A DNA stretch of 64,000 nucleotides from Hyaloperonospora brassicae (taxonomy: Eukaryota; Oomycota; Peronosporomycetes; Peronosporales; Peronosporaceae), in assembly GCA_947650285.1 (NCBI GenBank), contig CANTFL010000195.1:1-64000 (forward strand). Reading direction: 5' to 3'. The notes under the pieces are model-generated. The model searched no databases. It had not been told where the DNA came from and saw only the letters and a list, made by a program, of their open reading frames with translations. Of the stretch, positions 18,735 through 48,601 are shown one piece after another (the first letter of the stretch is position 1; each line of letters begins with the position of its first letter). The position numbers and the translations under genes were made by a program.

Positions 18735-18739
18735 CGGTA

Positions 18740-21732: not shown

Positions 21733-22319
21733 GAGAAGGACTTGAGTGCTTGGACCGAAGTGATGATTGATTAAACTGAAGCTGATTGCTTCCTAAAAGA
21801 CTCCAGTACAGAGGGCGGTTGTGGAAAAGTCACTAATAAATTTTGGGACGCGGATCGGTGATCACTCAGTCAAGACGTCACTATCTGGCGAAAAACGACA
21901 CCTATTAATTTAGCGATCCAATAGGAGACGAACGATGATCCTCACGGAGATCAACGATTCGACCCAGCTCTCGCCAGAATGATGGAAATGGAACGTTTTT
22001 TAGACGAGGAGTAGAAAGGGATAATATCAACGGACCAATCTGGGACGAGTCGCATATATTTAAAATTTTCACGGTTTAATCTAGGACAAAGGAAGGGATG
22101 AAGTCAAGAAACCCACCAGAAGGTTGATTAAGAACAAGAAAGTGTGTGTCGAAGCAGGTAAAGACTGGGTCACGAATCTAAACCCTAAGCTCTCTTAATA
22201 TACGAACATTTGAGACATCATGTTGACAGATATCGGCATCGGTCGTGAACATTGTGGCAAAAGTACTCATGGAAAGGTACATCTGGGAACAGGTGGTGCT
22301 ATTAACTCTGTGAAGAAGG
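21733..22319. other. Non-coding 3' region of unit B
   Basis: Between the antisense start and the LTR. No ORF. It ends in the purine-rich GAAGAAGG at about 22312-22319, a possible polypurine tract for plus-strand DNA priming. Confidence 0.45.
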
Positions 22320-23196
22320 TGTAACATCCTGCAGATCGGCGACACTCTTTACCGGTCTCCCAAAGGGAGTACTGATAAAGGTTAATTATAGCCCGATCTG
22401 GAAGTGTTAATATTCACGGGAGTCCTTGTAGTTATTTTAAGACATGTGGAGGGTCTCGTAGACCAGATAGACACAGAAGGGTGGTTTTGGAGCACGTACA
22501 ACGGACAAAATAAAACCTAATGCTAAATTGCACCGTACCGATCCTCAAAAATCTCGAATCGGGCCAATAGATCGGTCATGTTCCCTGCTGACTATGGATA
22601 TATCGGTGATGGAGCTATTGTATGATGATGTACATGCTTGTTGGAGATCCATGAGTGATGTCTTACAGGTTCAGACCGAAAGAGCCAGTGGAAGCCGGTT
22701 GAATTAACGTCGCAAAATGGATTTAGACACATTCCACATTTTGAATACTATTCTAGACTTTTCGGTACCAAAGTTGGGTATTCGGTACCGTATTTGGTGT
22801 CTAGGTACGATATCGGGAGTATTGGCGCTATCTTTGGAGCACAGGTCACGAAATTTCGACACGTGTTCAAGGGGGCGGTCAAGCTTAAAGGTGATATCGG
22901 TTTAGAGAGTGACCTACAGTTTGGAATAGGCTTAAATATAGGTTGGCTTTTATTTTGGTCGGTTAATAAACAGACTTGAACTCTACTTCTTCTACTCACG
23001 ACGCACGTTCTCATCCCCTCTTCTCCGAGCAAGATTGATTTGTCTTACCCGTCGGGTCAAGGCACGCGTGTTGCTAGGACATTGAAGACAGATATTGGAT
23101 TGATGGCTAAGAGCAAGAAGAGCGTTACCGGAAGATCTTATCTGGATCGATCAAGCACTCACACTTTACTCAACTGCTAGGGTGTCAGCAACAACA
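22320..23196 (+). repeat. LTR shared by units B and C
   Basis: About 877 bp, TGTAACATCC to CAACA. Aligns with 9302-10197 at roughly 90% by eye; it lacks a ~20-base stretch of the left LTR (around 9778-9797). It is followed not by flanking DNA but by another 5' leader. Confidence 0.6.
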
Positions 23197-23714
23197 GAAA
23201 AGGACTGGACACAAGATCGCGAGACGGCTCAAGTGGTCAGAAGATCTGGACAAAACGTTCAAGACAAGACCGAGCAATATCGAAGCGTTTTACAAGGCAG
23301 ATCGGACCGATCCCAAAGCAAAACCAACGCAAGACTATCATTTGCTGAGTGAAGATTCCCGTACAGCGAAAATCCGATCCCGAGGACAAATCGAGATCAG
23401 TGTGATCCAAGTTTTAGATCGCGACATCGCCAAAAGTGACTGCCGCGACTCGAGATCAGGGTCGCAGAACCCTGTTCGTGGTATGAAGATTTTCGCACCG
23501 GAAGCAAACCCTCAACCCCAAACCCTCAGCGAGATCGACATCTCCCAAGGCCGTTACGAAGAGCTCAATCCAGCCCAACCGACGGGTACACAAGGTGAGC
23601 ACAAGGCTATACAACAAGGCACGTATCGGAGTACCCCCTCCGTGAGTCGGCAAGTCTGGGCAAGTGGAAGATCGACCCTCACACAAGCAATTTTGTGGGA
23701 TCGACTTCACCACA
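22320..23714 (+). mobile_element. Ty3/Gypsy unit C, truncated to LTR and leader
   Basis: After the LTR the sequence follows the unit B leader (TGGACACAAG at the primer-site position, ACAAGGTGAGCACAAGG, GTGAGTCGGCAAG) up to 23714. Homology then stops within a base or two of the gag ATG position and the sequence becomes the antisense region of element D. This is a third array unit cut by a breakpoint. Confidence 0.7.
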
Positions 23715-29440: not shown

Positions 29441-30049
29441 TAGATAAATCCTCCTGGGTCTTCCACCACTTGCCCCGATTTTACTATCAACGCTCCGGTG
29501 GCCAGCGTTTCCGCGGCCGCGTTGTAGCACCGTATAACTTGCAAATACCAGAAAGAGTTGAACTGGGCGACTGATTTGTTGTGACGCGCTAACATCAATT
29601 GCAAAGAGTCTTTATTGCGAGTGATCACCCCATAATTTGCTGGATTGAGAGCCCAAGGTCACCCACAGTAATCAAGTCTGTCACTTTTTGTTCTGACGCT
29701 GATTGCGTTCCGTTATTCATTCCTGTGTACTCTGCAAGATTCACTGTCGTTGCCGGCACGTAAGCACTCGCAGCGATCATAATGGTCCATTCCGGCAATC
29801 TCCTCAGTAACCACAAGCAGCTTCCGAATTCCCCATGCTTCTCGTTCTTTGCGGATCCATCAAACGAAAGTACAAAACAACAAACGTCGGAGGCACTTGC
29901 GCGTAGAAAAGCTCCGGATTCTGTCAAACACTCACCGAATGTTTGGCGGCTGGGGCAATATGTCCTAACTACTCGTCGAGGCCGATTGTCGTCGTGACGG
30001 ACGCTTAAAAAAATTGGGCGAATTCCACAATGTGCTCGCTCACTCTCTT
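29441..30049 (-). pseudogene. Second RNase H of element D
   Basis: VLSFDGSAKNEK (Asp), LPEWTIMIAASAY, NLAEYTGM (Glu), TVGDLGLSIQQ (Asp) align with the second RNase H of A/B; D keeps Asp where A/B have Glu. The frame runs into the LTR of element E at 30050, which interrupts it. Confidence 0.7.
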
Positions 30050-30441
30050 TGTTACGGGGCACACCCTTGCGTGAACTTAACGCAAGGGTTTCGGTGCCCC
30101 GACAGACGTACACGAGGCAAACGAAGAAGCGTATATAAGGTAAAAGCAGAACTGTTATATTAATATAATTAAGTCTTTAACCACTGTCTCTCTGTTTGAC
30201 TTAAGTTAATTATGCTAATATAACTGAGTGTATGGTGACGTCTCGTCACCACTCATTGCGCGCGTCTTGCGGCGATTGGTGGGTTGATATCATCAAGATA
30301 TCAACCAATGAACAGACTCTTTGGTCGACCCATCAATATCACCACGATTGGTGATATTGTTAAAAGAATATACAACATAATATTCTTTATTGTCATTATC
30401 TCTCAAATGACAATTTCCATGTAACGGGCTGCCCCGTTACA
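30050..30441 (-). repeat. 3' LTR of element E
   Basis: On the + strand it begins TGTTACGGGG and ends CCCCGTTACA. It is a chain of inverted repeats: arms at 30063-30072/30080-30089, 30283-30291/30297-30305, 30334-30344/30349-30359 and 30420-30428/30433-30441. Confidence 0.95.
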
Positions 30442-30452
30442 TCACCCCCCTT
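30442..30452 (-). promoter_or_regulatory. Polypurine tract of element E
   Basis: The minus strand reads AAGGGGGGTGA immediately before the 3' LTR start TGTAACGGGG. This is the expected primer site for plus-strand DNA synthesis. Confidence 0.7.
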
Positions 30453-30571
30453 AACTGATAGTCACCGTGTGACTATCGAAAATATGGCGGTCTCCCGTTG
30501 GGCACCAGTGGGACAGGGAGCACTTGTTGGGTCCGTTCCATTTACTTTCCGCTTGACCTCGCATAGTTAAT

Positions 30572-31522
30572 ATGTCTATGCGAGGTGACTCAAGACCCGC
30601 ATATCCCGGTGCTGTGCCAGCCTCTGCGGCAGACGATTCGTCGTCTACTGCTCCTTATCCGCCTGCAGCAACAGGTGCTGCAGGTGCACGCGGTACCACA
30701 CCGCGTGCGCATGATGACCCCGACATTGAGGTCGTCTACTCTGGCGAGTCAGACGTGTATGACTCGGGCAATGGCCTAGAGGCGTCTCGATCACCGGCGA
30801 CGCCTCAGTATTCGCCAAGGCCACGGCCGAACGAACGGACTCGTGATTTGCATCACATTCTGTTCGGCAGTGATGATGATGATCAGGGTGGTGAGGAGTA
30901 TTACTACTTACCACCGCCGACTCGTGCCTCTTTGCACGAGCGTGATGACGATGGCGTGATCCGTCGTCAATCTGGGAGCCGTGGTACCGACAAAGGTACC
31001 ACTGTGAAGCATGATGAACTGAAGCCGTGTCGTTTGCCCGAACAAATCATCAATAGCTTGTCTCACGAGACAAGCCAACACCATCGAATACCCTTATTTG
31101 ATGCGACTGAGCTTCACGGCTTGAATTATAGCACGAAGAACTTTCGCGCTGTAGAACATTTTTACCTCGATGTATTTTTTAGACATCGATGGTACAACGG
31201 CAACCAAAAGCGTGACAAGGCCTTGCTTTTGGCTGCGTGGAACGCGTTCGTCCAAAACCTAAAGAATTTTGGACGAGAAGGGTGGCTTAAGAAACTTGAG
31301 GCGGTACGCCTAAAGTTTGAAAAGCGAACGCCAACCGGTACAAGGTATCGGTTGCACTGTTTGTCGAGTGAGGCAGACATTCCTTGCCTCACATGGAGAG
31401 ACCCTTGTGCGAGTTGTGTTGACAACTCGCAGCGTGCACATAGACGCGTGTATTCCCTAAGTTCGCCCTGGGGAAGGGCACACATCTCGGCTGAGATGCG
31501 GGACGCGATTGCAAACTTGTAA
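30572..31522 (+). CDS. N-terminal open part of the E antisense protein
   Basis: 316 residues. Residues 1-115 are low complexity and acidic (FGSDDDDQGGEEYYY near 98-112). Residues ~170-300 look globular (FRAVEHFYLDVFFRHRW, DKALLLAAWNAFVQNL, CLTWRDPCASC). The ATG lies in the loop of a perfect 10-bp inverted repeat (30557-30566/30576-30585). No family was recognised. It starts 130 bases inside the 3' LTR, so that LTR could supply an antisense promoter (inference). Confidence 0.65.
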   Translation: MSMRGDSRPAYPGAVPASAADDSSSTAPYPPAATGAAGARGTTPRAHDDPDIEVVYSGESDVYDSGNGLEASRSPATPQYSPRPRPNERTRDLHHILFGSDDDDQGGEEYYYLPPPTRASLHERDDDGVIRRQSGSRGTDKGTTVKHDELKPCRLPEQIINSLSHETSQHHRIPLFDATELHGLNYSTKNFRAVEHFYLDVFFRHRWYNGNQKRDKALLLAAWNAFVQNLKNFGREGWLKKLEAVRLKFEKRTPTGTRYRLHCLSSEADIPCLTWRDPCASCVDNSQRAHRRVYSLSSPWGRAHISAEMRDAIANL

Positions 31523-31550
31523 TCCGTCTACAAGCGCCTAGGGCCCGTGT

Positions 31551-31844
31551 TTACCGATGGGCCACAAGGTCAATTGGATGAGTCTCGTCATACTGGTGGA
31601 CGAGACCTTCGACATCCATCAACAGCTGAGCGCGGGGCTCCCAGCTGTTCCAAGAGGGTCGATTGTCCCGCCACTGGACGAGGTAGCTCGTCCTTGATCC
31701 TGAATCGTCACGGTGATTCAAGATACTCTCCACTAGATAGCGTTGACCACCGTAAGCATCCACCAAAGGATGTGGTGGAGGAGGAAAGACCTTCTCCAGA
31801 TGATTCGGCTCACCATCTCGACCCTTACGAGATGGATCGCGCAA
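31551..31844 (-). pseudogene. Chromodomain of element E
   Basis: 98 residues. The chromodomain pattern RYLVESILNHR ... YLVQWRDN ... SWNSWEP lies at about residues 35-70, followed by LVHQYDETHP. It is the natural C-terminus of E integrase and is in frame with 31899-32423 across a stop. The opposite strand carries the antisense ORF. Confidence 0.75.
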
Positions 31845-31898
31845 TCGATGAATTTCGCGATGACTTGAAGCACGAGCGCGACCGGCGCTACGCTTTGA

Positions 31899-32423
31899 CT
31901 AATACCGTGTGAAAGAACCGCAAAGATCGCGATGCTGATCGGGCGAGAGATCGCGCCGATTGTGCCACAGCGCAGCTTCAGGTCGAGCGGGATGTCCGCT
32001 CCCTTTACGGCGAGCTGGCGACAGCTCGCGGGGAGATACCTCGGTTGAGTTCCGAGGTATCATATCTGCGCGACCAGACGGATCGTCTGGTGCGCGAACG
32101 CAAGAACTTGATGGATGTTCTTGAACGTGGGGGCTATCTTCATCGGAAGAAGAAGGCTCGTACTGACAGTACGGCCTAAGCCTCCCCGCGTAAAACGTAG
32201 GATGCGTGCGCATCTTACGTGACAATTCGATCTTGTATGCATTGCCCTTGCTATGCAACAATTGAAATGGATCAATGTACTTCGACAGTAGTTTACTACT
32301 GCCGACACTAGTGAATGCATGTCCAGGTAAGTTTACCGTTGTCAGTAGTACTAGGTCGTTAACTTTGAATGAAAGAACATTTGCACCTCCATTCTTGTCT
32401 GCGTTCCGTTTCTGGTGGTTCAC
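31899..32423 (-). pseudogene. Integrase C-terminal domain of element E
   Basis: About 174 residues: VNDLVLLTTVNLPG, SKYIDPFQLLHSKG (GPF/Y-type, first residue changed) and HPTFYAGRLRPY, then a long charged linker to the chromodomain. The linker is antisense to the coiled coil of the additional ORF. Confidence 0.8.
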
Positions 32424-32508
32424 CGCATTTGCGATGGAGTCCTGAACGAAACGGACTACCGCCTCTCGAGTCAGCAGGAAGCTCTCCGCTTACTCTTTGT
32501 TTTGTCTT

Positions 32509-34191
32509 TCAGTGCGCTTCGTGCGCACTGCTAAGAGATTGTTTCTTCTTCAGCGAGGTTATCCTCTTCCTCGCTGGCATAATCGTTGACGATGCTGAAT
32601 ATACCAGCATCATACGAGTCACTAATAGCGTCGCCGGCATTATTGAGGTGATCTTCTTCATCGATGTCGACCTGATCGACATCGGCATCATACGTGACGA
32701 CGTTAGCGTCGACACGTGATGAGCAAGAGCCAGAACGGTTTCTGCTCGAGCGAGTCCCTCCCCCCTTATCCAAGAGTCACACTCTAAAAGGGCGGGAACA
32801 CGTGGATGGCGTAAACCATTCACGTAAAACGGTGTGTGCTGTGTGGAAGCATGCACCGAATTATTGATGGCAAATTCCACCATGGGTAGGAATTCGCTCC
32901 AGCTCGGAAACGAGTGGACATATCCTCGAAGGATCTCTTCGAGGACACGGTTCGCACGTTTCGTCTGACCATCTGTTTCCAGATGGTCAGAAGTAGACAT
33001 CATCAATCGTGTTCCCAGAGAACGGAACACGGTTTGCCTAAATGCTGCCGTGAACCGAGGGTCACGGTCGGATACGAGTTCACGGGGTAACACGTGGAGT
33101 CTAAAGACCGTGTCTAGAAAGACACGAGCACAACCTTGAGCCTTGACCGACTCAGGGACAGCAGCAAGATGGACCATCTTGCTGAATTGGTCAACAAACA
33201 CAAGAATGCCATTATTCTTGTGAGCGTCTTCGGGAAACCCGAAGACGAAGTACATTGAAACGGACTGCCAGCACTCTGTCGGAACAGGAAGAGGCTGCAA
33301 TGGCGCATGGGATGAAGGACTAGGCTTCACCCGTTGACGAACCTCGCAAGCACGTATGTACTTGCGGACAAAATGATACTGGCGTGGCCAGTAAAAGTCA
33401 CGACTTTCCGTGAGGTAAGTCTTTTCTCTACCACGATGGCCGCCTGTTGGGGCATCGTGACACTCATACATGATGCGTAAACGCAAATCATGATGAGTGG
33501 GTACGACGACACGAGGCGTGTCGTCGGCAACAGCTGTATAGTACAGCAATCCGTTGCGTGTACTATACCGATCCGATGAGGATCGGTACAAAGCCGGTAA
33601 ATCCCTCATGGATTTACCGGATGGATTCACCAGATTATCCATCAATCGCAGAAGATCCTTATCTTCCGCGTACGCCTTTCGTACGTCGTCAAGTAAACTT
33701 GACGACGGAACACTGGCTGTCAGTGTCGCAACATTGGGCTTATCCTCACTAATGAATTGTGCGTCCGGCTCTAAATCGGGCCGGCGCGAGAGCGCATCAG
33801 CGACGACATTGAGTCGTCCTGGTTTATACTCCACGGAGAAGTTATACTCCGCGAAGAAAGACAGCCACCTCGCCATTATTTGCGAGAGGTGTGGGCTGTT
33901 TACGGCCGTGCGTAATGACGCATGGTCCGTATAGACGATGAACGGTCTATCTCCCAAGAGATATACGCGAAACTTAGACAGTGCATATTTCATGGCAAGG
34001 AGTTCCTTGTCATGCACTGGCTTTTTGCGCTCAGCTGATTGCAGCTGACGCGACCGATAATAGATGACGCGCACCGCGCCATCTGCGTCGAACTGCATTA
34101 ACGCACAGCTGATTGCAAAATCGCTGGCGTCACAGACCACATGAAATGGTCTGTCCTGATCTGCAATCGCTAATATCGGCGGCTGCATCAA
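32509..34191 (-). CDS. RNase H and integrase of element E
   Basis: 560-residue ORF. RNase H has VVCDASDFAIS, VHDKELLAM, VYTDHASLRT and NVVADALSRR, all acidic positions kept. Integrase zinc domain: GGHRGREKTY then CEVRQRVK, where the last Cys is Arg. Core: VSMYFVFGFP has Tyr for the first catalytic Asp, VSDRDPRFTA keeps the second, and GQTKRANRV has Lys for the catalytic Glu. From ~residue 500 the frame has shifted out of an acidic linker. It should be inactive as integrase. Confidence 0.9.
   Translation of the reverse strand: MMQPPILAIADQDRPFHVVCDASDFAISCALMQFDADGAVRVIYYRSRQLQSAERKKPVHDKELLAMKYALSKFRVYLLGDRPFIVYTDHASLRTAVNSPHLSQIMARWLSFFAEYNFSVEYKPGRLNVVADALSRRPDLEPDAQFISEDKPNVATLTASVPSSSLLDDVRKAYAEDKDLLRLMDNLVNPSGKSMRDLPALYRSSSDRYSTRNGLLYYTAVADDTPRVVVPTHHDLRLRIMYECHDAPTGGHRGREKTYLTESRDFYWPRQYHFVRKYIRACEVRQRVKPSPSSHAPLQPLPVPTECWQSVSMYFVFGFPEDAHKNNGILVFVDQFSKMVHLAAVPESVKAQGCARVFLDTVFRLHVLPRELVSDRDPRFTAAFRQTVFRSLGTRLMMSTSDHLETDGQTKRANRVLEEILRGYVHSFPSWSEFLPMVEFAINNSVHASTQHTPFYVNGLRHPRVPALLECDSWIRGEGLARAETVLALAHHVSTLTSSRMMPMSIRSTSMKKITSIMPATLLVTRMMLVYSASSTIMPARKRITSLKKKQSLSSAHEAH
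32531..32773 (-). pseudogene. Acidic linker piece, element E
   Basis: 80 codons in another frame, overlapping the end of the RNase H-integrase ORF. Very acidic (VDIDEEDHLNN, YASEEEDNLAEEE). It probably represents the true linker sequence after a frameshift near 32770. Confidence 0.45.
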
Positions 34192-34263
34192 GCTTTGCTT
34201 GATACCTTCGAAGGAACGCTGGCACTCAGCGTTTCATGACCACTTGACATATTTCTTGAGCAA

Positions 34264-35163
34264 TCAAGAAAGATGAACAGTCATCTCGGCGTAGTTGCGC
34301 GAGTACTTGTGCAAGTACGCCGCTAGCCCAAGTAATTTCCTTAGTCCCTTGACATCGACTGGCACTGGCCAGTCGGTGATCGCCTTGATCTTTTCGGGAT
34401 CAGGGCGTAAGCCGTGTTTACCCACGATGCACCCAGGAAGTGGTGTTTCGCTAGCCGCGAATATACACTTCTTGAGGTTTGCGTACAACTTATGCTTTCG
34501 CATAAGTTGAAGAACCTGGCGAACGTGAGTTCTATGAACTTCAACGTCCGTCTTTCCGTCCATAGCCCGGATATGGACGAACACATCGTCGAAGTAACTC
34601 GGTGCGAAGTCTCGCACCGGTCTCAACAGATTTGTGACACATCTGTTGAATGTTGCAGGGGCATTGCTCAGCGCCTGTGGCATAACTAGCCACTCCCACA
34701 GCATCCCGCTGGGGGTACTCACTGCTGTGAACCGGATGTCCCGTTCACGCATGAGGATCTGATAGAATCCATCCATCAGATACATGGACGAAAAGATGGT
34801 ACTCTTTGACATACCATCTATGATTACGTCCTTTCTCGGTATCGGCGTCTGAGCCGGTACCGTTTCAGCATTCAATTTGTTGAATGCGTGTACTATCCGC
34901 CACCCTCATGTGGCTTTTCGCACACAGAAGGTCGGAGAGCTGTGAGGGGATGTTGATTCTCTCACATAGCCCGCTGCTAAGCGATCGGCAAAGAACTTGT
35001 CGATCGCTAGTACTTGTTCACGAGGCAGTGGCCACTGCTTCATGACACAGTACTTCGAGCCCGGTTTATGCTCGATCTCGTGTCGAGTGCATTTGTCTTT
35101 AGACAACTCGCATGGCACGGATTCAGGGAACACATCCTTGAATTCGATCAAATCCTTATACAA
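34264..35163 (-). pseudogene. Reverse transcriptase of element E
   Basis: One frame broken by a TGA at 34906-34908 (Gly position). Motifs: KYCVMKQWPLPREQ, SPHSSPTFCVRK, FSSMYLMDGFYQI (first Asp), MPQALSNAPATFN, SYFDDVFVH (catalytic pair) and LGLAAYLHKYSRNY (thumb). It ends at a TGA and is followed in the same frame, after another stop, by RNase H. Confidence 0.9.
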
Positions 35164-35172
35164 AGGATTTGC

Positions 35173-35370
35173 CTAAAGTGACTCCCAGGATTGGGACGTG
35201 TATCGCTCAATCCGAGTCTTCTCATCGAGGACACTTTCGTCCATCGATGAGCTGCTGAGAACCCGTTCGTTCTCAGCAAATACTGTTGCCGATCGAATAT
35301 CGTCCACATACTCATCCTCTGTGACGAGTATGCAGATCTGCTTGACGTCGCCAATACGCAGATCACGCAA
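35173..35370 (-). pseudogene. Protease-RT linker of element E
   Basis: 65 codons in the same frame as protease and RT, bounded by TAA (35398-35400) and TAG (35173-35175). Acidic and hydrophilic (VTEDEYVDDIRSA). No catalytic motif. Confidence 0.5.
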
Positions 35371-35397
35371 GAACCGATTCGGTTCTAGCGTTAGAAA

Positions 35398-36384
35398 TTA
35401 AGTTATCTCCGAAGTTAACTTCGGAGGCACAATCAGATCAAGCGTATAAGCGCCTACGCTTGATCCGTCATTAACCAAGACGTTCAACGTCTCGGTTTCT
35501 TCCTGGGAACTTGCTTCCACAGGTTGCTGAGGGCCTGATCCCTCAGCAAGTGACTCTTGAGGAATTCCTTCCTCAATTACGTGCAGACTTATTCCCTCGA
35601 CGTCTTCCGACTGTGGCTGTGCAACCAAAGTCAGGCACCGATCCTCTACGGTCGACTCTCCAGTCGACCTAGGATTTCCATGTTGCCCTTTGAAGGCAAC
35701 AGGTTTCTTACTTCTAAGATGCTGCCCGCTAGGCATGCATCCATGTCCCGGTCCACTCGACGTATTCGAGTGGTGGAACTTCGGCGCAGCCTGTACTCCT
35801 GTACAGCCGCCGGGAGCTTGCTCCACAGTGTAGTGATCAACTACACTGTGATCTTGTGCAGTCGTGCTAACGACCGTACCGCAAGTGAGGCCATCGCACT
35901 CACTCGCAGAACATCCACACGCTTGTGGACGCTCCAAGATGTTCATCAGATGGCCATCTGATGAACAAGTGACAGGCATCTTCACGGATCGATGCTGCCA
36001 GCTCACCCTTGGCTCGTACTTTCTGAGCCAAGGTAATCCCAGGATGACATCAAATTTGTAATCCAGATCCAATACGATGAAGTCATCATCGTACTGTTCG
36101 CCGTTCAACGTGTAGTCGATTCCTACTACACGTTTCTCAACGGTAATCGATGCGCCTGTTGCAAGGCGCACCGTCATTCTCGTGAAGGGAATGTCGCGCT
36201 CAACGAACTTGAGCCTACGACCCTCTAGTGACTGGCGTCGAACAAAGTTGTTCGACTCCCCACAGTCTACTAGGGCACGAAGCGACAAATCATTTGTCGC
36301 TTCCAGCTTCAAGGTGATGAGCGAAACGTCATCACCAGGTGCAGAGACACACAATGATTGTGTATCTGGAGCAACTTTCGTCAA
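35398..36384 (-). CDS. Retropepsin-like protease of element E
   Basis: 328-residue ORF. The active-site strand reads ALVDCGESNNFV (about residues 36-47), a DCG variant of the DSG motif. The C-terminal strand reads FDVILGLPWLRKYEP (about 109-123). The long hydrophilic tail contains two Cys-rich stretches. It shares its frame with RT and RNase H-integrase, so PR-RT-RH-IN was one frame now holding at least four stops. Confidence 0.85.
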   Translation of the reverse strand: MTKVAPDTQSLCVSAPGDDVSLITLKLEATNDLSLRALVDCGESNNFVRRQSLEGRRLKFVERDIPFTRMTVRLATGASITVEKRVVGIDYTLNGEQYDDDFIVLDLDYKFDVILGLPWLRKYEPRVSWQHRSVKMPVTCSSDGHLMNILERPQACGCSASECDGLTCGTVVSTTAQDHSVVDHYTVEQAPGGCTGVQAAPKFHHSNTSSGPGHGCMPSGQHLRSKKPVAFKGQHGNPRSTGESTVEDRCLTLVAQPQSEDVEGISLHVIEEGIPQESLAEGSGPQQPVEASSQEETETLNVLVNDGSSVGAYTLDLIVPPKLTSEIT

Positions 36385-36434
36385 GAGATTTGCAAATTCT
36401 TTTGAGGTTGCTGGATCAGTAGGGCGCTCCGCCC

Positions 36435-36938
36435 CTACTGACCCCGACCATTTTTTGATGGTCCGTCTCGCTGTTGCGGCTTCGCAACAGCGCTGGACCC
36501 ACGCCCATTGCCCTTTCTGGCAAATGGTCGTTCATTTCGCTCAGTACTGTTTGGTACTGGGCGTGGAGCACTACACTCGTATGCGTAGTACCCTAACTTC
36601 TGACAGCGATTGCACCTCTGCAATCGCTTGTTGTTTGAAGAGCGAGGTCTCTCGCTCTCAACATAGCAGAGGTCCATTGGTTCTGGACCTTCAATCTCTT
36701 GTCGTCTTGGTGGACGATAAGAGTTTGAGCTAGCATGAGCCTGTCTCATGCTAAAGGCTTCCTGTTCCGCGGCTGATATCGCATCTTCCAGCGTATTCAG
36801 CTCAAGGCGGAACAGGTGGCTCCTGACGGGCCCTTCTGCGAGCCCTTGCATGAACACCGTAATCAACGTGTGTTCATGTACTGGGTTGGCAGTTATACTA
36901 CTCGCGAGGAGTCGTATATGTTGAGCGTAAGCGTGCAC
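36435..36938 (-). pseudogene. gag C-terminal half with altered zinc knuckle, element E
   Basis: 167 codons: end of capsid (LITVFMQGLAEGPVR, LEDAISAAEQEAF), then a knuckle CNRCQKLGYYAYEC in which the His is Tyr (CAC to TAC would do it), then a basic tail. Thrown out of frame from the first half by an 11-bp duplication. Confidence 0.75.
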
Positions 36939-36961
36939 ATTACGCTTACCCTGCTTGAGTT

Positions 36962-37600
36962 TCAGAAGCTCTGAACGAGCTCTGAACGAGCCCTGAACTC
37001 AGCCCGTGGCGGCTCAAACGTTTGTCTTAGCCGGAATTTGAAGTCATCTAGCGACCTAAACACATTTGGGTCGCTACTCTCGAGCCCCAGGGACCAAGTT
37101 TTGGCACGCCCTGCCAAGTGGGTCTGAGCAAATGTGAGTTTCATTTTCTCATCTTCGACGCGACGATCCCTTAGGGCTCTGTCGAGTTCGACAAGCCACA
37201 GTAACAGGGAGTCTTCCGGAACTTCACTGTACTTGGAGATGTCAACTTTCATGACATCGGGACGACGCGCATGCGCCGTCCCGCCCACAGCAGGATGGAA
37301 TTGCTGCTGTCTCAACAGCTCTGTCTGTTGAGCACCGAATTCTCTCAACTGCTCGGCCTGTTGAGAGCCCTGCTGGTGAAGCAAGGCTACTTTCTCCCTT
37401 TCGGCGACAAGTTCATGTTGTATGAACTTGGCTATAGCGGCATGTTGTTGGTCTCTGTCTAGAGACTCCAACATGGCGCTAATGGCGAACTCGCCTACGG
37501 TAGAACTCATTCGTTCTACCGCACCCCATTCGATGTCACTCAAATGGGTAAACCCTTCACGCGTGGCGTGAAAGGTCTTTTCATCATCCAACATGTTCAC
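36962..37600 (-). CDS. gag N-terminal half, element E
   Basis: 212 codons starting MNMLDDEKTF. Residues ~60-105 are a Gln-rich helical segment (QHELVAEREKVALLHQQ, QQTELLRQQQ). The capsid core is at ~120-205 (LLLWLVELDRALRD, TFAQTHLAGRAKTW, DDFKFRLRQTF). Structural protein of the virus-like particle. The frame ends just after the 11-bp tandem duplication. Confidence 0.8.
   Translation of the reverse strand: MNMLDDEKTFHATREGFTHLSDIEWGAVERMSSTVGEFAISAMLESLDRDQQHAAIAKFIQHELVAEREKVALLHQQGSQQAEQLREFGAQQTELLRQQQFHPAVGGTAHARRPDVMKVDISKYSEVPEDSLLLWLVELDRALRDRRVEDEKMKLTFAQTHLAGRAKTWSLGLESSDPNVFRSLDDFKFRLRQTFEPPRAEFRARSELVQSF
36970..36991. repeat. 11-bp tandem duplication in E gag
   Basis: TCTGAACGAGC occurs twice, at 36970-36980 and 36981-36991. 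It shifts the gag frame and splits the capsid region. Confidence 0.85.
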
Positions 37601-37644
37601 GTTAAATGTTGTGGTCCTTGGAAGGACTACAAAGCGCTAACAGG

Positions 37645-38036
37645 TGTAACGGGGCACACCCTTGCGTGAACTTAACGCAAGGGTTTCGGTGCCCCGACAG
37701 ACGTACACGAGGCAAACGAGGAAGCGTATATAAGGTAAAAGCAGAACTGTTATATTAATATAATTAAGTCTTTAACCACTGTCTCTCTGTTTGACTTAAG
37801 TTAATTATGCTAATATAACTGAGTGTATGGTGACGTCTCGTCACCACTCATTGCGCGCGTCTTGCGGCGATTGGTGGGTTGATATCATCAAGATATCAAC
37901 CAATGAACAGACTCTTTGGTCGACCCATCAATATCACCACGATTGGTGATATTGTTAAAAGAATATACAACATAATATTCTTTATTGTCATTATCTCTCA
38001 AATGACAATTTCCATGTAACGGGCTGCCCCGTTACA
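37645..38036 (-). repeat. 5' LTR of element E
   Basis: Copy of 30050-30441, TGTAACGGGG to CCCCGTTACA. Differences noticed: the fourth base and GAGGAAGCG against GAAGAAGCG. Followed by the target duplication CTCTT. Confidence 0.95.
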
Positions 38037-38041
38037 CTCTT

Positions 38042-39386
38042 AGTATTCAAATAACACGGGGACAGTGATACAGCGAAGCTGACGGCCCTTCCGTATAATG
38101 CCGTGGACGTGAAGAACAATTCCATCGTAGAGAATAGAGTTTATATGTGGACGACTTTTCCAGCAAGGATATTATGCGTTAATATTTAGCAACTTAAGCA
38201 TGTAGGCGGGCTCTTTCAGCTGCCTCGCACTACCTCAGCGTACACCTTCTGCGCACAACGAGGAAGCGGGTTAACCCGGCTTCTCTCGCGTGTAGCGAGG
38301 GTTGCTGTGCTGGCTCCAATTAATAGGGGCCTCGCAGTGACTTCTTCTAAGCTAAGTGTCGCGCGGAGTGCTAACCACTTCCTGCGCACACTTACACGAT
38401 AGAAATTAAATGTAAGACTAATTTATAATTAATGTGTGAGAATATAGATCTAATCGACTATTGTCTAAAACACATTGATTGAACGCGTACCCCAGTGAGA
38501 CGCTGTCCCTACGTGGCGATCTTGTAAAGATCGCGGATGACGTCATAGCACGACGTCACACTGATATGTCTTTTGTATTCACACCAAGCACAATATCAGT
38601 GTGGATACACTTGTGTGTACCACATACACTTAAGTAAGTACGCCCTAGTTGTACCACTCAAGTGACAGGCCTAAGTGCGTCTGCGCACTTAGGATCCCGC
38701 TTTTGTAAACGTTGGACTAAAGTAACCCACACTTTTGTGACCGTATGACTAACTTGCGTGGGACGGGGTTGACCCCGTTGTAAAGCAGCGCTAGCACTTT
38801 GCGGTCCGCAGGGTGGTGGCTTTTTCGCTCTCTTTCAGACTCGACAATAAAATTGAATCGGGTGTGTCATTCCGTGATGCGTTTGCATCAACGTACTTCT
38901 AAACGTCTAGTCATTAGCAAAACCCATCACATGGACGTCGGCTGTGGAAACAGAGTGACTCAGGACTGGAGCCTTAATTATTTATTGTTGCAGCATAGCG
39001 AAGAATGCGCGCGCCGACCACGTATGATTCTAACAAGAAGTCTTCACGCTTGAGTACTTCCATGTACAAAACGATGATATGAATGAACCGACTGTAATAG
39101 TTAATCGCTCCGAGAAACACTTGCATTCCCTATTTGACGCTGGGAATCGCCACTCAGTGATTTTCACCAGTTTGGTCGGGTCGCCTACAATGCTCTATGC
39201 TGTCACTTTGTGCGATATAATTCTACTTTAGGCTGCACAATTTTTTTCTCTGTGAAGCTAATGCTAATTGAACAATCCGTTCAGCATAATAACAACCGTT
39301 CGAGCGCATCTAAACATTCCTCGAAGATTCAACGTTGAATCATATACCGACCACGAATGATCGACGATGAAACACTTGGACAGCTA
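38042..39386 (-). pseudogene. Element D remnant: end of RT and RNase H region
   Basis: D sequence between the E and H insertions. At 39365 the minus strand reads CFIVDHSW, probably a decayed form of the RT catalytic motif, and near 39110-39165 RFPASNREC, a start of the RT thumb. A strongly mutated stretch at 38042-38200 may be the first RNase H. An inverted-repeat-rich block (38230-38790) seems foreign to it. Confidence 0.45.
38230..38790. repeat. Inverted-repeat-rich block, possible solo LTR
   Basis: Perfect arms at 38559-38567/38593-38601 (CACTGATAT) and 38670-38679/38684-38693 (CCTAAGTGCG, 4-base loop), others around 38519-38537 and near 38763-38779 (ACGGGGT/ACCCCGT). The style, and the terminal ACGGGG/CCCCGT pair, resemble the LTR of element E. 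No matching partner or target duplication was found. Confidence 0.4.
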
Positions 39387-39732
39387 TATACTCAGGATAA
39401 AGACGTTTTCGCTCTCTAGTTTTACACACGCCGGAGTTCGTCGAAAGCAACAGTGACTATTCACTGTTGGTTGATGCAGCACTTGATTACTATAATGAAA
39501 AATGTGAACTGAGGAAGTTATAGGCGAATTGAAAACACTAATCAGTATCATGAAACCCTCCCCCTCTTCTCCCTTTGCACTGGTGTCTTCCGTTAAACAC
39601 TGGAGACGCGGGAGGTCCAAGTGGACTATCATGTAACCCTTGTGTCATCATACCATCTAACAAGTAAATTTGATGATACCAGGAACTGATGTTATTAGCG
39701 TAGATTTTGACAGCTGCGGTCCTTCTGTAACA
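39387..39732 (-). repeat. 3' LTR of element H
   Basis: 346 bp. Shares long exact stretches with 61589-61933, for example ACACACGCCGGAGTTCGTCG. The outer end reads TA where the other copy has TG. Confidence 0.8.
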
Positions 39733-39859
39733 ACCTTCCCCCTGGCGACGATGGATATTCTACAAAAGACTCACGTTTTACCTTGTGAAATTGGCATCTT
39801 AGTACTTTGTACGTAGGGCGAGAAAGATCCTTGGTCAATATGTCTGCGAGCTAGGATTT

Positions 39860-40250
39860 TGCTAGGGAACTACTTCACGTTCACAAAATTTTGGCAATCT
39901 CGTCTTAAATATAAGCGGTACCTTAGAGCGATGAGCTTTGCGGCTGTTGTCATAATTTTATTCTTCATGGTACTGATGGCGCTCTATTCGTCAATCATGA
40001 TGCTAGGCACGATTACGACATGTGATAGTTTCACGACAAACTGTCTGATCTATCCGCACTCCGACACACTCATTGTACCAGCAATAAAATTCGCTTCCAA
40101 GCTAGACATGGCTACAACCGCTTATTTATTTCGATCTCCATGTAATTGGTCGTCAGTTGATGGCAAGTATTGAACCGCCCGTAGATTTTCAGTCACTCGG
40201 TCATTAGCTCAATCAGCGTCAGACCATATTATAAAATCGAGTTAACCGAG
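39860..40250 (-). pseudogene. Copia RNase H of element H
   Basis: Not visible as a long ORF. The minus strand reads AMSSLEANFIAGT, the Glu motif of Copia RNase H. Stops on both sides. Confidence 0.5.
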
Positions 40251-40709
40251 TATCATAGATTCACTTGACTTCTAAAAGCGCAGCCCACGATCTGATGAAC
40301 CCTCAAGATATCGAAATATATTTTAATAATTTTTTAGTGGCACTATTGTAATATCTCAAGGTGCCTTGGTGCGTAGTTCACTGCAAAAGGTATGTATAGA
40401 GCGTTGAGTTTACGATCCAAAGGAGCGTAGCGAGGGCTTCTTGTACACGATCAATGTCGAAAATATTTGCGCTTTCGAGTTTGTATTAGTCGGTAAATGC
40501 ATCCATCGGCGTCTCAACAGTTCTCACGTTATCCAGATTGAACTTTTGCAGCGCGACGTTCGCCATGCTCTGTTGCGACAAGAAGAAGATTTTATCTGTA
40601 TCGCGCACCGTTATATCAAGAAACTTTCGCACTGGGCCCAGAATTTTTATGCTGAATTCTTATTCGATCTTTGTTGTAACGCTCTTTAAATCTTCATCAT
40701 CGTGAAACG

Positions 40710-41330
40710 CAAACAGTATATCATCCACGTAAATACCCATAGTTATTGCATGCCTATTCTTGTCGCTCTCATAGTAGATGAATGGGTCCAGCTTTGACCC
40801 CTTAAAATCGATAGAGGTTATCAAAACGTCGATCGTAGCGTTCTAGCAGCGTCCTGGATATTTGAGACCGTATAGTGGATATAGAAGTTTAAGCACATTG
40901 CTGTCTTCTACGTTAAGCTTCTGGGGCGCTATAATGTAGATGAGTTCGCGCAGCTGGCCCTTTACGTAGGTATCACAGACGCCTATGTGTGTCAATTTTT
41001 GGACCAAGCAAGCTCGCAAGAGCAAGATATAGCTGCACACTGCTCATATTTATAACTGGAGCAGACGTCTCGGAGAAATTCACACCATACTTTTCACTGA
41101 AGCCTCGTGAAACAAGTCTTTCCTTGAAGCGCTCCACGTCACCATCAGCGCCGAGTTCAGCTTTAATACCCACTTGCTGTCGAAAACGTTTATCTTCTTG
41201 CCCGGCTCGTTGACCACTTCCCAAGTACCATTTTCGACGAGTGCGTCGAGGTTTAGCTGCATGGCCTTTATCCAGTCTTCCCGTTCAGGTAGCTTCATGG
41301 CTTCGTTTACGGATTTTTGGCGTCTAAACT
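40710..41330 (-). pseudogene. Copia reverse transcriptase of element H
   Basis: Starts REDWIKAMQLNLDAL ... NGTWEVV, then a frameshifted FSEKYGVNFSETSAPV and LLYPLYGLKYPGR, and the catalytic MGIYVDDILFAF at 40720-40731. Several frameshifts. The left part (40254-40700) has no clear motif. Confidence 0.75.
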
Positions 41331-41799
41331 TTCGAAATGATCATCCCTGTAATATTAAAGTAGCGCGCGGGATTGACAATTGGCATCTCTAACGCCGCTA
41401 TACCAATGTTCTTTCGTATTGGGCACATAAATCAGCATCAGACGATGCGCCACTTAAATCATTTAAGATAATGCTGGTATCAATTTATTCTCAATAAATT
41501 TCGTCATGGTCTCCATAGGTACAAAGGCTGTCGACGCCGTTTAAAGACTTATTTAGAGCCACGATAGGAAGGTCTATGGGATGTATGTGCTGTAAGACTT
41601 ATACTTCTTAGTGCACTTAATATACTTTCTATGACCCTTGTTTATTTCGTCGTCACCGATAAAGACCCCGTAATTAACTTTTTTGTAGACCTATAGCCTT
41701 GTTTTTCAAGTGTACTGTGACCTTTTGGTCCCACTCAAGTACGCAGCCAAGGTTACGCTTGCATTTTGTTAGCACTTCAATGGGATATTTGTTTTCACC
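41331..41799. other. Decayed Copia spacer of element H
   Basis: Corresponds to the integrase C-terminal and linker part of H. No ORF or motif recognised. Confidence 0.3.
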
Positions 41800-42317
41800 G
41801 CTTGCGCGTGTAAGCAACCGGTTCCTCAATCATGACTGGTGCTTCCGTCCATAAAAATTGTGGCGAGTATGGAGCGTCGAACATCATTGCTCGCATACCG
41901 TCAATTATGATGCCGTGGGGTTTCTCAACCGTCCCTTATAAAACTGAATCATCAAACTTGATGAGTTGCTGTCAAAAGCCGCGCTCGTTGCACCATGAAT
42001 TCATCGCTTTAGTATAGAACTCGGTGTCAATCCGAATGACTTAAATTTTGACCTAGTATTGCCGTGTGAAACGTAGAATGAAAGCGGTCTGTCTGTCGAA
42101 CCATACGAATTTATTTTGTATTAAAAACACTCTACCGTATGTTGGCGCATCGTCGACTACGTGCAACGAATGCGAATTCTTAATGTACACTTGTGGATTG
42201 TATTTCGTCTTTATGTCAACTTCCAGAACTGCGCCTCTCTCATCCGTTGGTACCGATCGCAAAGTGTCAGTCAGTGCCTTGCGACTTCGTGCTTGTTTGA
42301 CTTAACAGCAGGTACCG
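41800..42317 (-). pseudogene. Copia integrase of element H (3' of F insertion)
   Basis: Reads KQARSRKAL next to the F insertion, then the core with VIRIDTEFYTKAMN and CNERGF, then IDGMRAMMFDAPYSPQ. The first-Asp motif is not recognisable. Stops and frameshifts throughout. It directly continues the domain at 54787-55060. Confidence 0.6.
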
Positions 42318-42794
42318 TGTAGCGGAGCTACACAGCTCCTTAAGCCAGAGGAAGACTTAGCTCTCTACAAGCAACTTTGGTTTTACGAACCTGACTCAGA
42401 AAGTCAACAAGCTCGAGAGCTTACGGTCCCTGTTCCAGGGGGACTAAACGATTTAAAAGAATCACAGCACATAGTGCTCAGGAGCAGCTACCTTCACAGG
42501 TATTGCTAGCTCCTACCGATCAAAGACGCCTCGAAAGGCACGTGTCTTTCAGTAATCAAAAAGGAAACTGATCTTTATTCTTTTTTTAACCTAAACGAAC
42601 ACCTTAGCATAACGTACTTAGTCTACCCGCTAATGCCTTGAATAAAACCTCTCAAAAGATCTCGTAATCAATGGTTAACAGACATCAGTATTCAACAATT
42701 AATACTGTGTTTTAATATCACTCTAAAGGGAGCCCCAACCTTGTGTGCACCACACCTATTGTCGACTACCAGCCGACGTGTAACCCCGTTACCC
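42318..42794 (-). repeat. 3' LTR of element F
   Basis: On the + strand starts TGTAGCGGAGCTACA, itself an inverted repeat, and ends near CCCCGTTACC. A run of C (poly-G on the element strand) follows as the probable polypurine tract (about 42793-42805). Confidence 0.8.
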
Positions 42795-42898
42795 CCCCCC
42801 ACCAGACTGACGTTATCTCAAAATGTCAATCGAAGTCTTTTCTCGAAGGGGACGGTGTGTGTGCGCTTCAACCTTACGGTTGGAAAAACACAAATACC

Positions 42899-44178
42899 AT
42901 GGCATCGCCATCCCATGAGACCTCGACATCGATGTGGAGGTGGATTATGGTAGCGATACCGATATCCATGGTGAAGAGAGGACAATGTCCGACTCACCAG
43001 TGCAGAAGGCAGCGCCTCATACTGCAATAAACCCATTTGCCGAGCGTGGCGGAGCCAACGCGCCATCGGCGCCGCATCAAACACTTGTCGTTGCGATGCC
43101 ATCATTGCTAATCCGCTCGATGAGCAATAAGAGTTGGCTATCCAACGAGAGGAGAGCGCTCAGCGCCGTATGCTGCTTACTGCAACCCTTGAGGGTCGTC
43201 GTTGCTATCTGTTCACACAACTCAATGTGGAAGAGCGTATAAGCCAAACGACAGGTCGTTCTCTGGCAACGTGGGCCATTGGCGCTGAGCCAAAATCTTT
43301 TGATGAGGTGGCGAGTCGACAGGCACTTTGTGAGAGGTACCTGCAACCTTACTTGACAACTCAAAGTCAATACAAGTTGCGACTTGACACGCAGGCACGG
43401 GGTGCACCGTTTCCACCGATGAAGGGTATACCCATCCTCCTATTCGCAGGCGAATCTCAGGAGGAAGAAGACAACGCTTTTGCTCGCTGGGTGCATCGGA
43501 AACGACACCTCAGCAGCGTGTTAGCTCTCAAGCAAATGCCGATGTGGCAGATGTTCGTCTAGAACGAAAGCTTCGGTATGATTACGCCAAGCTTAAGGCC
43601 AGAGGCCAGTTGCAAACTCGCAGACGCTATTCTCCGGCTGTGTCAATTGATGTGGGTGCTGCTCATGCAGTACCCAACTACCCACATGCCTCCGCCACTA
43701 TTGGTGAGAAGCGCTCTCGGTCGAGGGATGACCCCTGCCACGATATTCAAAAACATCAACGGCGTATGGGCAATTCTGCCGAAGGAGTATCTTATACTCC
43801 CACAAGTTTTCCGACTTCGGTTACCCTCGCCACTTCAACAGATGCTGGTACTGGCCCTGACGACGACGTCGTTTCAGAAGTCGCTCCACATGGAACTGGC
43901 GGTTCCCTTGCTCATCGAGCAGCGTCGGAGGTGGTCAGTATACCGAAGGAGGAGCATGAGAAGGTGCTTTTCGAGCTGAGTGGTCTCCGTGAGACATTGG
44001 GTAAGACCCAGAGTGCGTTTGACGCGATACGAGCCCGTGTCCAAGCGTTGGAGTTGGGCTAATCCCGGATGGAGGCTCAGCTCGACCTCATGATACGGAT
44101 TCAGCAACCGATGGCAAGGCCAACGTATGCGACGAAAGCGCCTCGAAGTTCACGTGGGACGGATCCCGATACGGCTTA
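42899..44178 (+). pseudogene. Antisense additional ORF of element F
   Basis: ATG at 42899 (MASPSHETS). Pieces in three frames: 42934-43130 (EVDYGSDTDIHGEE, acidic), 43134-43562 (AQRRMLLTATLEGRR ... SFDEVASRQALCERYL), 43544-44062 (Arg/Ser-rich, then coiled coil HEKVLFELSGLRETLG and FDAIRARVQAL). A TAA at 44060-44062 precedes a short in-frame tail ending at 44178. The end overlaps the F integrase C-terminus. Layout is like E: acidic, middle domain, C-terminal coiled coil. Confidence 0.6.
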
Positions 44179-44483
44179 AGCAAGCCAACGTAGAACACGG
44201 GGTGTGTGCGCAGTTTAGGCGGAAGGTTGAGCGTATACGCAAGTCCCTTCTTGGCGACGACCGTGAATGGTCCAATGAAGCGCGGGCGCAACTTTGTCAT
44301 GAAGACGGCGGACACTACATATGTCGGTAGGTTTTTAGCATTGAGTAGAACTTGGTCTCCGACCTCATAACTTTCAATACAACCTCTGCCTTTGGTATCA
44401 GCTTGATCCTTCTGTTTGTCTTGGCTATCAGCCAGTGCGTCACGCACATGTCGTAAGACATTCAATCGCGTTGCGAGAAACAC
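44088..44483 (-). pseudogene. Integrase C-terminal domain of element F
   Basis: 131 codons: YEVGDQVLLNAKNLP, RFIGPFTVVAKKG (intact GPF motif) and HPVFYVGLLKPY. No chromodomain was recognised after it. Confidence 0.8.
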
Positions 44484-44686
44484 GCTTACCTGTTTTTGAA
44501 CAGTAGCAGGGCTGATATCAGCAAGCCGATCGGCAACTCCTCCCCCACCAAGCCCTGAACCACGCAGTGGTAGCGTTAACGGAACGCCAGGGTGTGTGTG
44601 AGATCATTCACATACAACGGTGTATAGCCAGTGTAGGCATGCACGGCGTTATTCAACGCAAGCTCAACGAGAGGGAGCACCGAACT

Positions 44687-45046
44687 TCAACGATTAGACG
44701 TTTCAGCGCAAACACTGCGCAAGACGTCACCGGTGATGCTATTTACTCGCTCGGTTTGACCATCAGTCTGCGGATGATCCGCTGTGGACATGTCCAAACG
44801 TGTGCCGAGCACCTTGAAGATGGACTTCCAAAACTTCCCAGTGAAGCGAGGATCTCCATCAGAGACAATTGCCAACGGCAAAGCTTGTTGTCGAAACACG
44901 CGATCGATAATCAGCGTCGCTGTACCTTCACCATCAATGGTATCTGGCACCGCCGCTATATAAGCCATCTTGATCAAACGGTCAACAAAGACCACAATAC
45001 CCGTATTTCCATACGAATTTTTTGGTAATCCGAACAGGAAGTCCAT
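44687..45046 (-). pseudogene. Integrase catalytic core of element F
   Basis: 119 codons with the full D,D,E set: MDFLFGLPK (Asp), IVSDGDPRFTG (Asp), GQTERVNSI (Glu). The zinc domain lies upstream in 45047-45260 (TALSGHLGREKTY). Stops lie on both sides. Confidence 0.85.
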
Positions 45047-45179
45047 ACTGATGGATTCTATACCACTTGGGTACAGGCAAACTAGCCAGCAGTGCGGCCG
45101 TGTGACGTGAGGATTTCACCCGTTGACACGTTTCACACGTACGCACATATGTGCTCACTCATTTGTATAGTTTGGGCCA

Positions 45180-46064: not shown

Positions 46065-46100
46065 GTAATTGACAAGGCCAAGCCACTTACGTAAGTCTTT

Positions 46101-46880: not shown

Positions 46881-46889
46881 TCCGCTATA

Positions 46890-47745: not shown

Positions 47746-47778
47746 ATCTCCCTTGATGTGTGCGCGAAGTGTGCATGC

Positions 47779-48600: not shown

Positions 48601-48601
48601 G

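Follow-up and report, generated by a model that had tools for sequence, protein, structure and literature searches.

Element E occupies positions 30050..38036, on the minus strand, of a 64-kb stretch of DNA from the oomycete Hyaloperonospora brassicae (the window: positions 1 to 64,000 of contig CANTFL010000195.1). Its pair of long terminal repeats (LTRs), its Pfam domains and its stem counts identify it as a Ty3/Gypsy LTR retrotransposon tiled with perfect short hairpins. The hairpin pattern is kept while elements are active and lost once they are dead, and related families of the same genome carry hairpins of other sizes.

Hairpin excess in element E and its younger copies

We counted stems as maximal perfect inverted repeats with loops of 0-20 nucleotides (nt). 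Taken as one LTR plus interior (7595 bases), E holds 78 stems with arms of at least 8 bp, against a mean of 1.85 in 20 dinucleotide shuffles, and 45 with arms of at least 9 bp (0.55 in the shuffles). Arms of exactly 7 bp number 33, compared to 5.9 in the shuffles. Stems with arms of at least 9 bp start at 51 places inside E and at 8 in the rest of the window (2 at 38.1-40 kb and 6 elsewhere), and six other stretches of the window have 0-6 stems each with arms of at least 8 bp. An earlier reading of the window, made from the letters alone (the sequence-only reading), had listed 16 arm pairs, one of them of 8 bp, and had put the chance expectation for arms of at least 9 bp at about 0.4. All 16 pairs proved to be perfect reverse complements where they had been placed, and the expectation was about right. 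Folding of the E RNA, which that reading had proposed as a check, gave a mean z of -6.76 on each strand in segments of 300 nt (26 per strand), against -0.44 and -0.41 outside E (55 per strand). A search of positions 30000-38100 with Rfam at gathering score gave 0 matches to known structured RNA families.

Hairpins are found in both LTRs and throughout the interior. In the 3' LTR in the sense of the element (30050..30441, minus strand), stems with arms of at least 9 bp start at 30063, 30282, 30334, 30363, 30389 and 30419, the last ending 1 base past the LTR; the stems of the 5' LTR (37645..38036, minus strand) duplicate those of the other LTR. Single hairpins lie at 30556..30586 (arms 11, loop 9), 31056..31075 (arms 9, loop 2), 31408..31431 (arms 10, loop 4, within an antisense open reading frame [ORF]), 32035..32061 (arms 10, loop 7), 34486..34509 (arms 10, loop 4), 34623..34649 (arms 9, loop 9), 34868..34887 (arms 8, loop 4) and 35253..35278 (arms 10, loop 6). 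A cluster of five with arms of 9-11 spans 33504..33707, and there are two (arms 9 and 10) within 36416..36492 and two (arms 10 and 9) within 36605..36753. The longest hairpin of E is a 28-bp perfect palindrome (arms 14, no loop), found with a second hairpin (arms 11) in 35824..35967. The earlier list lacked the hairpin at 32964..32991 (arms 12, loop 4), three in 35407..35549 (arms 10, 11 and 10) and three in 36107..36303 (arms 10, 9 and 12).

The genome was searched as a 100.6-Mb assembly of 898 contigs. The first kilobase of E was matched over nearly its whole length at at least 40 places, the window included, its integrase protein at at least 78, and a relative of its antisense ORF at at least 92; copies lie on many contigs. 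We fetched 20 copies chosen from the 40 first-kilobase matches and 3 from the 78 integrase matches. The 20 copies, 3 of which are truncated or interrupted, have 38-110 stems with arms of at least 8 bp in 8.2-8.3 kb, and the 3 extra copies have 115-118 in 8.4 kb. One of these 3, L030, has two LTRs without a difference over 390 bp and open frames for gag, pol (1339 codons) and the antisense ORF. Over the same alignment columns (one LTR plus interior), L030 has 110 stems, L029-L031 have 107-110 and E has 77, and among 21 nearly complete copies those with more private divergence have fewer stems (rho -0.94). The window holds an eroded copy, and younger copies are more hairpin-rich, a point beyond the sequence-only reading. 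LTR divergence failed as a clock: it was uncorrelated with private divergence (rho -0.02), perhaps because the two LTRs were cross-filled in the alignment. E reads 1.04% there against 0.51% in a direct LTR comparison.

Perfect arms contain 26.6% of the bases of L030. Inverted repeats (IRs) with arms of at least 10 bp and spacers of at most 8 amount, arm and spacer together, to 119.5 bp per kb in L030 and 82.8 in E, and to 99.6 and 68.9 for arms alone. A survey of 118,019 genomes reports a eukaryote mean of 1.91 and a maximum of 180.33 IR bp per kb (PMC13155455); these are figures for whole genomes, which one element is not, and the survey's treatment of spacers may differ from ours. The highest density of perfect inverted repeats reported in that survey is in Kummerowia striata partitivirus (PMC13155455).

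Transposing copies of the E family have one short perfect hairpin per about 69 nt over the LTRs, gag, pol, the gap after pol and the antisense ORF; the geometry of the hairpins was read from L030. Stem density is 13.5-16.9 per kb in the LTR, gag, pol and antisense ORF and 8.8-10.1 in two gaps. Among stems with arms of at least 8 bp, arms reach 12 bp, with one of 14, and loops are mostly 2-8 nt, 4-5 nt being commonest. These stems span 24.2 ± 3.1 nt, and arm length trades off against loop length (rho -0.35). Longer arms are less GC-rich (rho -0.26, p = 0.005), and 18 stems are imperfect, with one inner mismatch and at least 4 pairs on each side. The pairing is local: stacked 5-bp pairing exceeds background 5-8-fold at inner separations below 20, 1.5-fold at 20-30 and 1.25-fold at 30-45, and is close to 1 beyond. 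We considered regular spacing of the hairpins and rejected it; the coefficient of variation was 0.66, against 0.65 for random blocks, so that spacing is random. A common loop motif was looked for in E and none was seen. The stem density claimed by the sequence-only reading also stood up to codon-preserving shuffles: pol of L030 has 58 stems, against a mean of 1.85 and a maximum of 4 in 40 shuffles. In pol, few stems are in the codon phase that sets third position against third position (8 of 58, p = 0.001), which is what one expects when the pairing comes from third positions.

Hairpin sizes in sister families

Around integrase matches we took 20 pieces of 3.7 kb, chosen from 150 listed. One was E-type and the others fell into families X2 (2 pieces), X1 (4) and Y (13). 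The E-type piece has 44 stems with arms of at least 8 bp, the X2 pieces 20 and 20, the X1 pieces 10-14 and the Y pieces 0-2. The contrast that the sequence-only reading expected with other Gypsy elements holds for these families of the genome in that they have fewer long stems. The existence of sister families with other hairpin sizes had escaped it.

By the count of arms of at least 8 bp, Y appeared to be a plain family. This view was corrected by folding energies and shorter helices. The folding excess of Y is 12-19%, above that of X1 (6.8%). Compared to codon-preserving shuffles, Y copy L042 has 113 five-bp arms (63.8 expected), 42 six-bp arms (17.2) and 5 seven-bp arms (4.0), none of 8-10 bp and one of 11; its excess lies at spans of 12-16, and Y copy L036 is alike. 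The arm lengths in excess are 5-6 bp in Y, 7-9 in X1 and 6-11 in X2 (6-10 in X overall). In E pol they are 5-12 bp, with the strongest ratios from 7 up. E arms are mainly of 7-12 bp, stems of at least 8 bp having a mean span of 24 nt, and hairpin size is less sharp in E than in Y.

X1, X2 and Y (L032-L051 without L047) resemble E in having related pol sequences (integrase 52-57% and reverse transcriptase [RT] 63-67% identical) and a local hairpin excess. They differ from it in hairpin size and, mostly, in where the hairpins lie. Stem centres coincide between E, X1 and X2 (58, 14 and 20 stems) in only 2-3 cases per family pair; the L030 equivalent of the hairpin at 32964..32991 nearly shares its centre with one X1 stem and one X2 stem. 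In an integrase tree, rooted for drawing only, E, X and Y fall in separate groups, each with elements of other oomycetes. Two family-specific base preferences at stem ends, read from L033 and L042, appeared in an exploratory set of 40 tests: of 107 Y stems, 10 have G as the closing left base (0.25 expected, p = 5e-5), and of 27 X2 stems, 20 have G as the outer left base (0.35 expected, p = 5e-5).

Chance, composition or an assembly artefact can be dismissed with near certainty, given the shuffles, the 38-118 stems in each of the 23 E-copy stretches, the decay with divergence, and the three kinds of family with different sizes.

Other elements of the window were compared with E. Neither the chromodomain Gypsy copy at 1-9175 nor element F showed a marked short-separation excess (0.97-1.22). 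The sequence-only reading had contrasted E with a "related" element F; the contrast holds, but F is Copia and not a relative of E. Element F (47320-52181) is Copia-type by its gag_pre-integrs and Pol_BBD matches, and its ends are 98.4% identical. The chromodomain Gypsy is present in two copies (1-10812 and 12906-23714), 88% identical over the first 9.2 kb, and the second has a 364-aa minus-strand ORF (20232-21326) downstream of pol with weak, sub-cut-off Pfam matches only. The minus strand of 38040-47300, with RNase H at 45183-46064, holds a decayed element of family Y that shares 83-89% identity with the Y pieces. In an X2 element (L052:463-1857, minus strand), an antisense frame that overlaps the end of pol is open for 465 codons, and a search with the E antisense ORF found no similarity to it.

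Maintenance of the arms and rival explanations

We scored variants among the copies against L030, using the sites at which its base is the commonest one; since the copies are related and hence not independent, the p values serve as guides. In the E family, singletons per site are 0.384 in arms, 0.421 in loops and 0.409 elsewhere (arm vs other, p = 0.053). In contrast, variants found in at least three copies occur at 60 of 1989 arm sites (0.030), 55 of 605 loop sites (0.091) and 274 of 4730 other sites (0.058), a depletion in arms relative to loops (p = 5e-9) and to other sites (p = 7.5e-7). At pol third positions alone, shared variants are at 0.070 in arms, 0.227 in loops and 0.128 elsewhere. 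Pol first and second positions, and the non-coding parts against the remainder, go in the same direction without being significant alone. By depth in the stem, shared variants fall from 0.057 at the ends to 0.030 at the next position and 0.016-0.021 further in, while singletons are nearly flat. Family Y (13 aligned sequences and L042) has shared variants at 0.059 in arms, 0.120 in loops and 0.100 elsewhere, and singletons at 0.173, 0.170 and 0.176. Near-even singletons combined with arm-depleted shared variants indicate that copies decay near-neutrally after insertion and that the transposing lineage keeps the arms. Among one-sided changes in E, mismatches other than G.T and A.C make up 25 of 68 shared and 388 of 736 single changes. 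Private stems, among those listed, are often 1-2 changes away from commoner states.

The two strands are nearly equivalent in E. Over 21 segments of 350 nt with 8 shuffles each, the mean folding excess of L030 is 48.7% on the sense and 48.5% on the antisense strand, with 26.4% in the lowest segment, and the mean predicted hairpin energies are -13.2 and -13.1. If only sense RNA mattered, G.U should be better tolerated than A.C on that strand, and this was found in neither E nor Y. Interior mismatches of near-perfect stems in gag and pol of L030 are 24 A.C and 23 G.T of 68. One-sided changes to G.T and A.C number 164 and 184 in one copy, 35 and 39 in two and 22 and 21 in at least three copies in E; the corresponding numbers in Y are 46 and 48, 9 and 11, and 21 and 19.

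The reading we favour, tentatively and from sequence patterns, is that selection on transposing lineages favours short, local self-folding in both polarities, each family having its own gauge. Selection on each of about 100 hairpins would be weak and would act in the transposition cycle, not at the chromosomal site. The folding units would be single strands of both polarities, either genomic RNA and minus-strand complementary DNA or sense and antisense transcripts; both polarities are proposed because G.U, although a pair in RNA, is no better tolerated than A.C. Less well supported parts of the proposal are that the reader of the hairpins might be encoded by the element itself (Gag nucleocapsid or RT/RNase H), which is suggested because families in one host use different gauges, and that the hairpins, as many redundant weak sites, might compact the nucleic acid and keep off complementary strands. 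The gain could be compaction, packaging, protection from annealing, or a step in reverse transcription. The range of mechanisms is narrowed by the lack of a G.U preference, the maintenance only in transposing lineages, the family-specific size in one host, and the mostly absent preference for place. Selection is better supported than template switching since variants in at least three copies are depleted in arms, most of all in stem cores, with singletons nearly even, and since this is repeated in Y.

Several observations weigh against this reading. The folding excess of Y is higher on the antisense strand (L042, 15.9% sense and 19.4% antisense; L036, 12.5% and 17.0%; 10 segments each). Conversely, the loops of L030 are purine-richer on the gag-pol strand (0.569 vs 0.515, p = 0.006; absent in the part with the antisense ORF), which is a hint that sense RNA is relevant. 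If only the third codon positions of pol or of the antisense ORF are counted, singletons, too, are rarer in arms than at other sites (p = 0.006 for each), and RT errors might be fewer in paired template, mimicking selection. Compensating changes exceed expectation only modestly. The sequence-only reading had suggested asking whether arms co-vary among copies: two-sided changes that keep a pair number 96 cells in E (permutation mean 71.7, maximum 83 of 300) and 31 in Y (mean 14.0, maximum 22), but the changed positions, 33 in E (mean 22.9), equal the maximum of 33, and the 13 in Y (mean 10.4) do not exceed the maximum of 15. An apparently strong covariation (130 cells over both LTRs) shrank against column permutation and was discarded. 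A codon-phase bias was not shown in gag alone (4 of 16) or in the antisense ORF alone (6 of 24). Amino-acid identity between L030 and Y copy L042 is 0.455 in arms and 0.554 elsewhere, so that hairpins either cost protein or sit where the protein is free; no comparable cost was seen in arms of X1 and X2. With regard to the gauge, X and Y were read almost only in pol, their sizes coming from one X1, one X2 and two Y copies, and the gauge of E pol is not single-peaked: there are 121 five-bp arms (76 expected) and 32 six-bp arms (20.5), with a smaller excess at spans of 14-17. Some short E arms may be broken longer stems.

A purely mutational origin, the strongest of the rivals, seems to us rather unlikely. 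In such a process the nascent strand would fold back during reverse transcription and copy its own arm, or have its mismatches corrected, and hairpin size would be a property of the family's RT. Such self-templating would fit the strand equality in E, the perfect pairing, the family-specific size, the similar density in coding and non-coding parts, and the restriction to active lineages; a repeat-conversion process has been proposed in a report on palindromes in the mitochondrial coding sequences of Nematomorpha (PMC6649704). However, under unbiased arm-to-arm conversion arms should vary as much as loops and most changes should be two-sided, whereas arms are depleted threefold and stem-core states in at least three copies are 23 one-sided and 4 two-sided in E, and 9 and 1 in Y. 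Template switching should leave changes of a stem on one arm and inverted loops. E-derived changes at outgroup-invariant sites are one-sided in 7 of 20 stems (7.3 expected), that is, they fall on both arms as by chance, and a single, marginal loop inversion was found. The non-coding parts of L030 have no arm longer than 12 bp, which also speaks against self-templating. Possible variants of this explanation are conversion that favours the ancestral state and RT errors that spare paired template.

Genome-scale ordered structure of the sense RNA alone, as in RNA viruses, would act through packaging signals or shielding from RNA silencing; we regard it as improbable. The commonest loops of 4-5 nt, the lower GC content of longer arms and the purine-richer sense-strand loops of L030 are in its favor, as is structure spread genome-wide over poorly conserved positions, a feature reported for genome-scale ordered RNA structure (GORS; PMC7642675). 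LTR retrotransposons of P. infestans are reported to hold abundant 25/26-nt small RNAs (PMC3804510). As a sole cause, sense-strand RNA structure was rejected on the lack of a preference for G.U over A.C in E, L030 and Y. In addition, the antisense strand shows as much folding excess as the sense strand in E and more in Y, and a single host sensor would hardly account for different hairpin sizes in the same host. More improbable still is a non-B DNA (cruciform) form of the integrated element that affects chromatin, transcription or a centromere-like state. Strand equality would be natural for double-stranded DNA, and for some species a link between centromeres and short dyads has been reported (PMC9070824). 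Against it, arms of 5-6 bp, as in Y, are seemingly too short to extrude, and E copies lie on many contigs. Thus, of the causes offered by the sequence-only reading, selection for structure has fared best, template switching has lost ground, and plain sense-RNA structure fits poorly.

Anatomy of E, known systems and implications

E reads leftwards, since gag, protease, RT, RNase H, integrase and an SH3 domain follow one another in order on the minus strand. The gag piece (36962..37600) matches Retrotrans_gag (E 4.7e-5; 24.0 bits, cut-off 24.1) and, weakly, Ty3_capsid. Downstream of it in the gag sense come an open piece without a Pfam family (36435..36938), an aspartyl protease piece (35398..36384; RVP_2, E 1.1e-7), an RT piece (34264..34875; RVT_1, E 2.9e-18), a piece with RNase H and integrase (32509..34191; RT_RNaseH, E 9.8e-30; Integrase_H2C2, E 1.9e-16; rve under its cut-off) and, at the end of pol, a Tf2-1-like SH3 domain (31899..32423; PF24626, E 1.4e-8), all on the minus strand. 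E thus has the paired LTRs around gag, protease, RT, RNase H and integrase, in order, that define Ty3/Gypsy elements, with gag just below and rve clearly below the cut-offs. A run of C on the plus strand beside the 3' LTR (30442..30455, minus strand), which we take to be a polypurine-like tract, agrees with the orientation given by the domains. The LTRs (30050-30441 and 37645-38036) are 99.49% identical over 392 bp. The window copy is decayed, with gag and pol split into pieces, and is not an intact autonomous element. Its LTRs are about 0.5% apart, yet its interior has 2.1% private changes and broken frames; E may have been mobilised in trans or had its LTRs converted.

The antisense ORF at the 3' end of the element (30572..32178, plus strand) is open for 316 codons to 31522 and then interrupted; its end at 32178 was read from the sequence, and it has no Pfam family. 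At the 92 listed places the frames of its relatives are open for 407-588 aa; in some, stops fall within the match, and many are open for about 490-540 codons. A 77%-identical protein is named Hyaloperonospora brassicae by its source, and a 43%-identical relative from H. arabidopsidis is labelled by its source a core-binding-domain protein. Named relatives of the integrase (120 listed of 2156) are from Peronospora, Phytophthora and Globisporangium. A viral contig collection searched with the E integrase protein and a genome contig collection searched with an alignment profile gave no relatives. The hairpin property itself was examined in one genome.

Among known systems, GORS is similar in having structure across coding and non-coding parts, many consecutive stem-loops and positions poorly conserved between relatives, and in L030, too, folding energy lies well below order-shuffled controls genome-wide. 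Genome means reported for GORS are 7.5-10.7% in HCV, about 15% in SARS-CoV-2 and 23.4% in the highest virus recorded, with single regions above 50% (PMC7642675). The L030 mean of 48.7% is above these genome means (PMC7642675), although shuffling and window steps differ somewhat. GORS belongs to single-stranded RNA virus genomes, whereas E is an LTR retrotransposon, known here from sequence, with perfect pairing, no G.U preference and a hairpin size of its own for each family. The palindromes in mitochondrial coding sequences of Nematomorpha are likewise numerous perfect inverted repeats within functional genes, with gains and losses from species to species; 110 repeats of at least 15 bp are reported, with a mean of 43 and up to 142 bp, at a mean distance of 37 bp, the long ones nearly all perfect (PMC6649704). 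In contrast, the E-type hairpins are in a mobile element, have arms of 5-12 bp across families, tight loops and a size for each family, and include imperfect stems; the longest arm is 14 bp. The RNA genomes of Ty1, Ty3 (of the same superfamily as E) and HIV-1 are LTR retroelement RNAs with local structure. The published description is of A-rich mosaics in which stable structure takes up to 30% of the RNA in Ty and about 40% in HIV-1 (PMC11381356). L030, by contrast, has near-even base composition and hairpins throughout. Centromeric short dyads are likewise reported as dense inverted repeats under about 10 bp (PMC9070824). They are chromosomal sequences, whereas in E the arms take nearly an even share of the changes private to single copies and are avoided by shared variants only. 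Among the titles and abstract openings listed in literature searches, none describes a hairpin-tiled LTR retrotransposon.

These findings indicate that protein-coding sequence can bear a hairpin every ~70 bases and that related elements of one genome differ in hairpin size. A further possibility, which we consider doubtful, is that each family of this oomycete Ty3/Gypsy clade writes its own gauge over its whole genome (about 24 nt in E, 12-16 in Y, intermediate in X), in addition to the proteins encoded there. The family's Gag or RT would read this gauge on both polarities as a distributed, position-free size code that would separate cognate from foreign nucleic acid. The idea is weakened because E also has the smaller excess at spans of 14-17. 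If true, it would be a genome-wide cis signal of a kind that we found described for no mobile element. If the hairpins are selected, they would reveal an unknown requirement of the retrotransposon life cycle that is readable from sequence alone; if they are mutational, they would reveal an RT that turns the genome of its own element into palindromes. In both cases, several families with many young copies in one host provide a test bed.

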